A stretch of DNA of 37,780 nucleotides from Candidatus Levyibacteriota bacterium (GTDB lineage: Bacteria; Patescibacteriota; Microgenomatia; Levybacterales; UBA12049): the NCBI GenBank assembly GCA_016182205.1, contig JACOXW010000003.1, forward strand, positions 1-37,780. Direction: 5' to 3'. Under the pieces are notes generated by a model, which worked only from the letters and a program-made list of their open reading frames with translations, was not told the DNA's origin and made no database searches. Shown in pieces: positions 2,675-8,568 of this stretch. The position numbers and the translations under genes were made by a program. Position 1 is the stretch's first letter. Each line of letters starts with the position of its first letter.

Positions 2675-2757
2675 AAGAAGAACTTATTATACCATTTTTG
2701 AACAAACAGAATAAACTCTTAAGATATTTTACCTCTCACTTTAGTATAATACAGGTA

Positions 2758-5382
2758 ATGGTTGAGACAGCAAGACAAAGATCTCCCGAGGTTGAAGAAA
2801 CAACCTCAAATACAACGGGTTTGCAAGGCAGACTACTTCTTGCACGCCCTGAATTACTAAATCCCGAAAATCCTTGTACTCAGGAAGCTCTGCAAAGCAT
2901 TGTGGGTTTTGATGATCGAGGTTATGGATCTTTTCAGAAAGCGTCTGTAACAGACCGTGCAATGTACTGGAATACTCAAATAAGAAGAAATCTTGTGGAA
3001 AATTCTCAAAGTGCAATACGCGCTGCCTGGCAGGAGAAAGTTGTAGCAAGCTTCAACAAAGATAACAGTCCTATTTCGGCTCTCTCTCCCCTTCTTTCTC
3101 ATATCGGTATCGCGTCAGAACCAGGAGGATTTACGAAAGCCCACGCGGCAAAACTCTATGGCAGATATTTCTCTTCAAATGATGAAAATGCGGGTGTCAA
3201 GAAATTTGTTGCGGATGTTTTGGAAACCTATCAACAGAATGGGACAATAGACAAAGTAACAATTCTACAACACGCAAAAGAGCTAACCTGGCTTGCCAAT
3301 ATTTTCGGCGAAAAAGCAAAGGATATGGTCAGAGAGCTTGTCTTTGCTGAAACAAACCTAAAGACTGCACCAAACTTTGTACAAACACTCTCAGAAGCCA
3401 AAGACGACCCGGTGACACATAGACCCGTTATGCGGATAAATGATCTAAACAGTTACGAAAAACGAATTCTCAAATTTATTTCCGGCATGGGACCGGACAT
3501 AGAACCCGGTAATGAAGAATCCGAATCACCAGAAATACCCGGTGAGTTACCGATTGAAAAACACAGGACGGAAATTCAAGATCATATCAGAAATAATGAT
3601 ACCACGCTTGTTATCGGCGGGACTGGATCCGGAAAAACCATGCGTGTTCCCCAAATGATACGAGAGATTATGGGCCCAAATGATAAGCTTATTGTTACTG
3701 AACCCCGTCAAATCAACACAAGCGAACTGGCTGCAAATGTCGCTCGGGAAGCTGGAGTTACACTCGGAAAAGAAATTGGATTTCAACATGGAGCAGACAG
3801 TAATTATTCTGACGAGTCAGATACAATTTTTATGACCGAAGGAACTCTTATCTTAAAGCTCTTAGAAGACGACACACTGAAAGAGACCAACTATGTTATG
3901 GTAGACGAAATCCATGTTAGGACAAAAGATACAGAAAAACTTCTTGAATTGTTAAAACAGGCACAACAAAAGCGACGACAAGCCGGCATACCACCGCTAA
4001 AAATTATCGGCGCATCAGCCACCGTTAACAAACAGGAACTGCAAGATTATTTCGGAGTTGACAAATCTATTGAAGTAGAAGGACGGACATTTCCTATCAG
4101 AGAAAATTTTTCAGACGTAGATATTCCAAGCGATCAAATGCCGCAAGCATCAGCAAAAATAGTCAAAGATATTGTACAAAGCGGAAGGAAGGGTGATATT
4201 TGTATTGCAATTGCTGGAGTTGCGGATATAGGAAAACACGCCCAGGCGATCTTGGCAGAAAACCCGGATGTTATGATTGTTAGACTTCACTCAGGCTCTT
4301 CACAGCGTGAAAAAGATGAAGTGGGCAAACCACCGCCTCCTGGAAAACGTCGTGTTATCATAGGAACAGATTTTATTCAAACAGGTGTCACAATCAAAGA
4401 CTTGAAATTCGTCATTAACACTGGCGAACAGTTTCAACAAACCGTTGACCCGCGAAGCGGCCTGGAGTACATCAGCCGAACGCAACAGTCTAAAGCAGAA
4501 ATTGCCCAATGGAGCGGGCGTGTAGGAAGAACCTCTCCCGGAACTGTCTATAATTTATTCACAAAAACCAACTATGATCAAAGGCAGGAGTACCCAACCC
4601 CTGAAATAAGAAGGACAGATCTTACCGATGTTGTTTTGGAAATAAAACTTAGAGGCATTCAGGATTTTTCAGACTTTAAAGTTCTCTCTTACCCGCTCGA
4701 CCAAGAGCGTCTTGAATTTGCAAATGAAACGCTGCTACGGCTAGGTGCTTTAAATCCCGACAAAACCATAAATGCAATTGGCAAACGCATGGTTGAACTA
4801 CCCACAGATTACCATTTTGCCAGAATGATTGTTGAAGCACAAATGCGAAGAAAGGGCGTGAAGGAAATATGCACTATTGCAGCACTGGCAGAAGCAAGGT
4901 CGCTTTTCTCAAGGGATAGGGCAAAAGCAGACGCAGCCATGACAACTTTTAAAAATCCCAACTCGGATTTTCTGACATTACTCAATATTTGGCGGGCATA
5001 TGAAGCAAACGGAAAAAGTTCGCAGTGGGCCGAAGAGAATGGACTCAATCCGCAATCACTTACTCAAGCTGAAAAAGCAATCGATAAACTGGTCAAACGT
5101 GGACGTGGAGATCGATCACCACAAGCCACAGATGAGGAACTTGAGCATTACATTTTCACGGGTCTTCGTGACAGACTAATGCAGTACGACCCCATCAGAA
5201 GATCATACAGGTGGAATCGGTCAAATGCAGTAAATCTCAATTTACGCATCGACAGACGATCAGCACTTTCCCCTGCGACACCCCCATACATTGTCGCAGC
5301 GAGTAACTCTCCTGTAGAAAACGGCAGAGCTGTATTTGTATCTAACTGTCAACGAGTGAAACCGGAGTGGATTACAAATTAA
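2758..5382 (+). CDS. DEAH-box ATP-dependent helicase (HrpA/HrpB-like)
   Basis: GGTGSGKT (Walker A), VDEIH (motif II), GASAT, GTDFIQTGVTI, QWSGRVGRTSPG (motif VI), C-terminal NCQRVKPEWI. Start moved from 2698 to 2758 because TATAAT at 2745-2750 lies inside the 5' part of the track ORF. Confidence 0.9.
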   Translation: MVETARQRSPEVEETTSNTTGLQGRLLLARPELLNPENPCTQEALQSIVGFDDRGYGSFQKASVTDRAMYWNTQIRRNLVENSQSAIRAAWQEKVVASFNKDNSPISALSPLLSHIGIASEPGGFTKAHAAKLYGRYFSSNDENAGVKKFVADVLETYQQNGTIDKVTILQHAKELTWLANIFGEKAKDMVRELVFAETNLKTAPNFVQTLSEAKDDPVTHRPVMRINDLNSYEKRILKFISGMGPDIEPGNEESESPEIPGELPIEKHRTEIQDHIRNNDTTLVIGGTGSGKTMRVPQMIREIMGPNDKLIVTEPRQINTSELAANVAREAGVTLGKEIGFQHGADSNYSDESDTIFMTEGTLILKLLEDDTLKETNYVMVDEIHVRTKDTEKLLELLKQAQQKRRQAGIPPLKIIGASATVNKQELQDYFGVDKSIEVEGRTFPIRENFSDVDIPSDQMPQASAKIVKDIVQSGRKGDICIAIAGVADIGKHAQAILAENPDVMIVRLHSGSSQREKDEVGKPPPPGKRRVIIGTDFIQTGVTIKDLKFVINTGEQFQQTVDPRSGLEYISRTQQSKAEIAQWSGRVGRTSPGTVYNLFTKTNYDQRQEYPTPEIRRTDLTDVVLEIKLRGIQDFSDFKVLSYPLDQERLEFANETLLRLGALNPDKTINAIGKRMVELPTDYHFARMIVEAQMRRKGVKEICTIAALAEARSLFSRDRAKADAAMTTFKNPNSDFLTLLNIWRAYEANGKSSQWAEENGLNPQSLTQAEKAIDKLVKRGRGDRSPQATDEELEHYIFTGLRDRLMQYDPIRRSYRWNRSNAVNLNLRIDRRSALSPATPPYIVAASNSPVENGRAVFVSNCQRVKPEWITN

Positions 5383-7580: not shown

Positions 7581-8249
7581 TCAACTGATGATATTTATTG
7601 CCCGCGCTGCAATCATAGCCAAAACCACAAGTGAGATTGACCCCTGCAGCATTAAAAACCCCTTCATTTTCTTTGAAAGAACGAGCGTATCGGTAGGGGT
7701 AAATGCCATGCTCGAGTAAAACGACATGAAAATATAATCAAGAAAAGCGGGTTTCCATGCCTTCCAACCAACCAGTTCATTCACCTCTTGTGGAAATAAT
7801 AAATCAGCCTTCAAAGACCTGGTATCTTTTTCGTGTGCTCTTTTTATCGGCCCACCTCTGTCTAAAAGCCAGTACCACATGGCAAAAATCAGCACATTAG
7901 AAACCCAGATTAAAAAAGCGTCCCAAAGAATTACTACTCCAAGCTTTTGTTGCGGAAGCGTAATTACAAGCGTTAGTACATCACGGACTAACAAAACAGT
8001 AAGAAATATATTTACTGTAAGAAGAAGTTTTCGAACAAGTTCTTTTTTATTATAGGAAATAAGAACCAATGCAACCGCAATAACCAGAAGATGAGACATC
8101 GGAATTACTACCCAAAATGCAGGACCGAAAAAAGATGCAATCGTTTTTGCAGTGGAAATTTTTGTTGACAAAGATGTATGAATTACCCCAAGAATAAGAA
8201 GTGCTATAAATACCTGTATATCATATGCGCGTTTTTGTAATACCTCCAT
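7581..8249 (-). CDS. Multi-TM membrane protein, DUF1345-like
   Basis: Several TM segments; C-terminus FLDYIFMSFYSSMAFTPTDTLVLSKKMKGFLMLQGSISLVVLAMIAARAINI resembles DUF1345; own promoter TTGACA-17-TACCGT-6-ATG. Confidence 0.65.
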   Translation of the reverse strand: MEVLQKRAYDIQVFIALLILGVIHTSLSTKISTAKTIASFFGPAFWVVIPMSHLLVIAVALVLISYNKKELVRKLLLTVNIFLTVLLVRDVLTLVITLPQQKLGVVILWDAFLIWVSNVLIFAMWYWLLDRGGPIKRAHEKDTRSLKADLLFPQEVNELVGWKAWKPAFLDYIFMSFYSSMAFTPTDTLVLSKKMKGFLMLQGSISLVVLAMIAARAINIIS

Positions 8250-8307: not shown

Positions 8308-8337
8308 AAAAAAGCTCTCACTTTTTCAAGTGAGAGC
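8308..8337 (-). terminator. Intrinsic terminator of the ncRNA
   Basis: GCTCTCACTT-GAAA-AAGTGAGAGC (10-bp perfect stem) followed by TTTTTT on minus strand. Confidence 0.9.
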
Positions 8338-8535
8338 TCGAGGTGAGACGTGTGCGAGTCGCCAGGGAGTTGGACCCTGGTCTGCTATCTCTCTCCCCAG
8401 TGAGATAGCTGCTCTTGCGTTGAGCTAGCGGCTCATATGCACCATCAACTTTCACGTCCTTTCATGCGTCCTTGAGCTCGCGATTAAACGGCTGTAAGAT
8501 AATGGCGCATTGGTTGTTCTTTTCCCATTACACCA
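8308..8535 (-). ncRNA. Candidate structured ncRNA with tRNA-like core (unassigned)
   Basis: Minus strand: predicted -10 TATATT (8547-8542), start ~8535; helices GAGCTC/GAGCTC, GGACGTG/CACGTCT, GAGCCGC/GCGACTC, D-like arm GCTC-AACGCAA-GAGC, GCTATCTC-N10-GAGATAGC, T-like arm CAGGG-TCCAACT-CCCTG; ends in intrinsic terminator 8337-8308. Confidence 0.65.
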
Positions 8536-8568
8536 AAAACTAATATAAAAGAAGGCAAAGGTAAAATC

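Follow-up and report, generated by a model that had tools for sequence, protein, structure and literature searches.

Does the minus strand at 8308-8535 of this DNA encode an independent RNA, and is that RNA a tRNA, the remnant of one, or a molecule with another role? An earlier note on the 37,780-nt stretch analysed here (the window) had proposed an unannotated, independent RNA with a tRNA-like core that departs from a real tRNA. As far as sequence can tell, homologues and covariation back that proposal.

A tRNA-like core with a closed middle arm

The sequence elements named in the earlier note were each found on the minus strand where it had placed them (Table 1). Folding the core alone reproduced the tRNA-like cloverleaf exactly, with an energy of -33.0 kcal/mol and an ensemble frequency of 0.50 (z = -3.1; 1 of 200 shuffles was equally good); the 8-bp middle arm with its 10-nt loop and the lack of an encoded CCA were also as described. 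The fold of the whole region 8308-8535, which includes the terminator, was better than that of any of 200 shuffles (z = -5.0). The core's acceptor, D and T arms are arranged with the junction spacing of a tRNA (7/4/x/5 arms), and the tRNA hallmark of a 5-bp anticodon stem, a 7-nt loop and an anticodon is missing.

Table 1 Features of the locus in window coordinates
Feature	Position	Strand	Description or basis
tRNA-like core (unit 2)	8355..8434	minus	sequence, fold, homologues in three genomes, covariation
Core acceptor stem	8434-8428 / 8362-8356	minus	7 bp, one C·A mismatch
Core D arm	8425-8411	minus	4 bp
Core middle arm	8409-8384	minus	8 bp, 10-nt loop, no anticodon loop
Core T arm	8379-8363	minus	5 bp
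Core discriminator G	8355	minus	CCA not encoded
Unit 1 remnant, refolded as a long hairpin	8435..8510	minus	alignment to L041 unit 1, fold
Intrinsic terminator	8312..8339	minus	12-bp stem and T run
TATATT, possible -10	8542..8547	minus	ca. 31 nt 5' of unit 1; sequence
Proposed closing helices, 5' strands	8453..8479	minus	GAGCTC-A-AGG 8479-8470, GGACGTG 8459-8453
Proposed closing helices, 3' strands	8334..8352	minus	CACGTCT 8352-8346, CCT-C-GAGCTC 8343-8334

The window gave no Rfam match at the gathering score. At E<=10 only unrelated chance matches appeared, with neither tRNA (RF00005) nor any other credible family among them, and ARAGORN reported no tRNA in the window. A search of the whole genome with the tRNA model at E<=10 listed 34 tRNAs, and the core locus was absent from this list. 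The C at T-loop position 55, which had been counted among the oddities of the core, is present; it is not odd, since the T-loop of the genome's own tRNA-Ile(GAT), an ordinary tRNA, reads TCCGATT. Because ordinary tRNAs of the lineage have C55, this T-loop is not a mark of decay. Several ordinary tRNAs in the same genome and its relatives (e.g. L018 and L056) have this C (TCCGATT), and most tRNA genes in these genomes encode no CCA.

Relatives, compensatory change and probable origin from tRNA

Three relatives of the core were found, two in the same Levybacterales family (L041, G067:C58, JAJYEF010000009.1; L042, G082:C7, JAGOPV010000008.1, Candidatus Levyibacteriota) and the third from a different family within the class (L114, G232:C8). 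A one-sequence covariance model built only from the window's copy of the RNA ranked L041 and L042 first in 73 genomes of the GTDB family. Its top two non-tRNA-like loci scored 47.8 and 44.3 bits and ordinary tRNAs at most 40.9; lower-ranked matches, where checkable, contained or overlapped ordinary tRNAs. Models for later searches incorporated the members found earlier. With a three-sequence model, members scored 84-99 bits and tRNAs at most 57 in 82 genomes of the order, a gap that is partly built in because the three members were the training set. In 385 class genomes the same model ranked the held-out fourth member, L114, first after its own training members, at 63.3 bits, with the best tRNA at 59.2. 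Members were found in 3 of the 82 genomes of the window's order and in 1 of the 45 of G232's order, 12 of which belong to G232's genus, with no further member. A pattern scan of GTDB r220 returned two true members (G082 and G067) and six chance matches, and blastn of the RNA against 60 relatives gave just one chance match, inside a coding gene. All four members probably come from metagenome-assembled genomes, as the titles of two of the records say, the window's own being 74% complete and the others 90-100%.

The earlier note had named covariation as a check, and compensatory changes were found in the four sequences. In their alignment 92.7% of pair cells held standard pairs, and of the 24 pairs 11 had changed at both positions (mean of shuffles 6.8; 0 of 500 shuffles as high). 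The covariation score was 0.50, that of the shuffles 0.29 (0 of 500). When partners were slid by 1-3 columns as a control, 38-51% of cells were paired and 0-3 pairs covaried. In the acceptor, D and T arms, tRNA history could account for part of the covariation. That of the middle arm is not so easily ascribed to tRNA ancestry, because six of its 8 pairs covary and the three inner pairs, absent in tRNAs, sit in what would be the unpaired loop.

A reading as an ordinary, decoding tRNA whose anticodon arm is odd or interrupted would suit the G067 member (L128), which ARAGORN calls tRNA-Trp(CCA) and RF00005 scores at 51.6 bits, over the cut-off. The other three members lack a 5-bp stem capped by a 7-nt anticodon loop and are missed by RF00005 at this unit, and a normal tRNA-Trp exists in G067; we regard this reading as highly improbable. 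Decoding by the three members that lack an ordinary anticodon loop is, from their sequences, very unlikely. An intron-containing tRNA was also considered and dropped, since three of the four members cannot form an ordinary anticodon stem-loop. Ordinary tRNA-Lys genes are present in all four genomes. The GG of the D-loop is lost in three members (AACGCAA, AACGTAA and AACAGCA) and retained in L041 (AAAGGAA).

By alignment, the closest tRNA in the window's own genome is tRNA-Lys(CTT) (GAGCCGCTAGCTCAACGCAAGAGC...CAGGGTCCAACTCCCTGGCGACTC in the core versus GGGCCGATAGCTCAACGGTAGAGC...CAGGGTTCGAATCCCTGTCGGCTC), and the best tRNA alignment score of the core was 63.5, against a maximum of 49 in 60 shuffles. 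In a tree of 84 sequences and 54 sites, built without the middle arm, the four members formed one clade among tRNAs (local support 0.934), which was placed, with low support, near tRNA-Ile and not tRNA-Lys. Because this placement disagrees with the alignment, we limit the claim to derivation from tRNA, which can safely be made on sequence grounds. Elsewhere, at about 1385-1680 of L050 (G012:C52), an intact tRNA-Ile lies within the anticodon region of a degenerate tRNA-Ile-like sequence, flanked by the inverted repeats CATATGCAAAT/ATTTGCATATG and with more tRNA-Ile fragments upstream. At 1510-1660 of L051 (G080:C14), tRNA-Lys(TTT) has a partial second tRNA-Lys no more than 10 nt downstream; in this copy a GC-rich hairpin separates the remnants of the D arm and the anticodon arm.

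Both L041 and L042 have a second degenerate tRNA-like unit (unit 1) immediately 5' of the core, with RF00005 scores of 25.6 and 22.7 bits, respectively (cut-off 29), and best tRNA alignments that score 68.5 and 67.5, where shuffles reached at most 47.5 and 43.5. The best match was Arg(TCG) in L041 and Val/Arg in L042, and an Arg identity is tentative. Unit 1 is absent from L114. In the window, 8510-8435 aligned to unit 1 of L041 with a score of 45.5, above 1000 of 1000 dinucleotide shuffles (mean 23.8, maximum 43.0); the same segment had no match above shuffles with unit 1 of L042 and no similarity to tRNAs (34.5 versus a shuffled mean of 36.1). It folds into a hairpin in which ATGCGCCAT (8510-8502) pairs with ATGGTGCAT (8445-8437); the best helix has 11 bp (3 of 300 shuffles had one as long; fold z = -2.5). 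A small reading frame, MGKEQPMRHYLTAV, lies at 8484-8528 on the minus strand; it has no ribosome binding site and is probably due to chance. The element would probably have begun as a duplicated tRNA pair, a plausible ancestor because relatives (L068, L121 and L123) carry tRNA-Arg and tRNA-Lys genes in tandem.

Such a pair could also be decaying, as functionless pseudogenes on their way to being lost. The patchy presence of the members, the loss of tRNA shape from unit 1 in the window and the missing D-loop GG in three of four members fit this explanation. It is at odds with 92.7% pairing maintained through compensatory change, a longer middle arm common to the members, a single clade that spans two families, and intact terminators, and we consider it unlikely. 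A selected, tRNA-derived RNA that does not decode is what these sequences suggest, and we hold it to be likely.

Transcription unit, gene context and proposed closing helices

Both in the window and in L128, a terminator comes after the RNA. The one in the window, previously described as a 10-bp stem with T6, was measured here as a 12-bp stem with a T run. A CTGAAA-18-TATATT promoter lies immediately upstream of unit 1 in L128; the promoter scan upstream of the RNA in the window found no consensus promoter and no good -35. The next gene (7581-8249, DUF1345-like) had been credited with its own promoter, TTGACA-17-TACCGT-6-ATG, and the one homologue in the family has this layout too (TTGACC-17-CACAAT-6-ATG). 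At window 8249 and 8224 on the minus strand, the listed start of this gene overlaps GGAGGT, and a later ATG may be the true start; the equal promoter-to-ATG spacing in the G009 homologue favours a leaderless start at 8249.

The neighbouring genes look like housekeeping-type chromosomal genes and differ across the four genomes; one downstream gene is convergent, and the family of the window's downstream gene is not shared with the relatives' loci. Farther off in the window, 2698-5382 on the plus strand encodes a protein of 894 aa in which Pfam identifies DEAD and helicase-C domains, an architecture that suggests an HrpA/HrpB-like protein. Inspection of ORF translations near the four loci revealed no obvious phage or plasmid genes. 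Degenerate patterns matched six IMG/VR sequences, none of them a member (chance matches or reverse-strand tRNAs), and further pattern scans of IMG/VR gave one phage tRNA and then no match. No relatives of the RNA were found in the phage and plasmid records searched, and hence there is no sign of a mobile carrier.

Mutual exclusion between the GAGCTC closing helix and the terminator would suit an RNA that acts in cis on the DUF1345-like gene, as its leader or attenuator. Such a role is very unlikely because that gene has its own promoter, with an equal layout in the homologue, because terminators follow the RNA, and because other genes, one of them convergent, lie downstream in the relatives. 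Since the neighbours differ in all four genomes, action in trans is favoured.

The long-range closing helices themselves had been presented as the architecture of the RNA. The complementarity exists and is weakly significant: as a duplex, the closing segments reach -21.5 to -22.7 kcal/mol, and 9-50 of 1000 shuffles were as good, depending on the segment limits. It is outcompeted, since the GAGCTC of the 3' strand overlaps the terminator stem and enforcing the helices together with the cloverleaf costs 12-13 kcal/mol relative to folds with the 5' hairpin and terminator (-71.7 kcal/mol for the whole transcript, versus -83.5 with the cloverleaf alone enforced and -85.2 for the MFE). By eye, nothing comparable was seen 3' of the RNA in L041 and L042, and the 5' closing strand is mostly a remnant of the upstream tRNA-like unit, as its match to unit 1 of L041 indicates. 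We do not count the closing helices in the RNA family.

The tRNA-like module and the possible 5'/3' stem had also suggested a bacterial Y RNA, which would tether Ro60/Rsr to a nuclease, as these are features of YrlA (PMC8394870). This reading fails because a search of the four genomes, three of them at least 90% complete and the window's own 74%, yielded no Ro60/Rsr (TROVE) protein. The lack of an Rfam match and of a closing stem in the relatives also speaks against a Y RNA, which is barely tenable.

Proposed mode of action and known systems

We propose that two neighbouring tRNA genes were duplicated, probably, and gave rise to a stable non-decoding RNA that would be transcribed from its own unit and end at its own terminator. 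As sequence, homologues and covariation show, unit 2 retains the acceptor/T-arm stack, the D arm and the junction spacing and has a longer closed hairpin in place of the anticodon arm, so that it cannot decode. It is the acceptor/T-arm stack and the D arm that RNase P, 3' processing enzymes, EF-Tu and many tRNA-binding proteins recognise. The RNA would presumably be matured by tRNA enzymes and may act in trans, as a decoy, regulator or scaffold that a tRNA-binding protein or nuclease would take for a tRNA. A trans-acting tRNA mimic is the most economical reading, and we give this mechanism an even chance. The explanation as a whole, a stable tRNA-derived RNA that does not decode, probably arose from a duplicated pair and acts in trans, is somewhat favoured. 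Against it stand the small number and patchy occurrence of the members (four), the tRNA-like G067 member with its 51.6 bits, the decay of unit 1 in the window and its absence from L114, and the part of the acceptor-, D- and T-arm covariation that tRNA ancestry could explain. More tentatively, the members may represent an undescribed Microgenomatia (Patescibacteria) family of anticodon-less, tRNA-derived regulatory RNAs, originally two-unit tandems, that act as mimics in trans.

If this is true, a tRNA duplicate that lost its anticodon while its arms were kept and lengthened by compensatory change would clearly exemplify the recruitment of a tRNA to a new job, and the RNA would serve as a defined bait for finding its protein partner. 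Patescibacteria have very small genomes and little has apparently been written on their non-coding RNAs; a literature search for tRNA-like or non-coding RNAs of this group returned nothing on point.

AlaRS recognises G3-U70, which the core lacks, and the core offers no anticodon to a synthetase that reads one. Both points count against a tRNA with a role outside translation, as an amino acid donor for cell wall or lipid, in the style of S. aureus tRNA-Gly or an MprF substrate. The retained acceptor and T arms would suit such a donor, as would the loss of G18G19, common to the non-proteinogenic tRNA-Gly genes of S. aureus (PMC4052509); we consider this role distinctly unlikely.

Compared with the tRNA family (RF00005), which is the evolutionary source, the core has the same cloverleaf, 7/4/x/5 arms and normal junction spacing, whereas it has no anticodon loop and the tRNA model misses three of the four members. 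The S. aureus non-proteinogenic tRNA-Gly isoacceptors are charged with glycine and have the GG at 18-19 replaced (PMC4052509). The present RNA is likewise tRNA-derived, with this GG replaced in three of four members; unlike them, its core has no anticodon. YrlA, whose 5'/3' basal stem is bound by Rsr, resembles it in the mimicry of D, T and acceptor arms within a non-coding RNA of similar size (PMC8394870). It differs from YrlA in that the middle arm is retained, with neither an Rsr gene nor a conserved basal stem. Among these three non-translational comparators, the core may work most like tRNA-Other of Bacillus cereus, a pseudo-tRNA at a genomic island that keeps a Trp anticodon (PMC3399842). 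By description, the core differs from tRNA-Other in having a closed 8-bp arm and no anticodon; the two are alike in being tRNA-like, non-translational, part of a larger transcript and narrow in distribution (PMC3399842).
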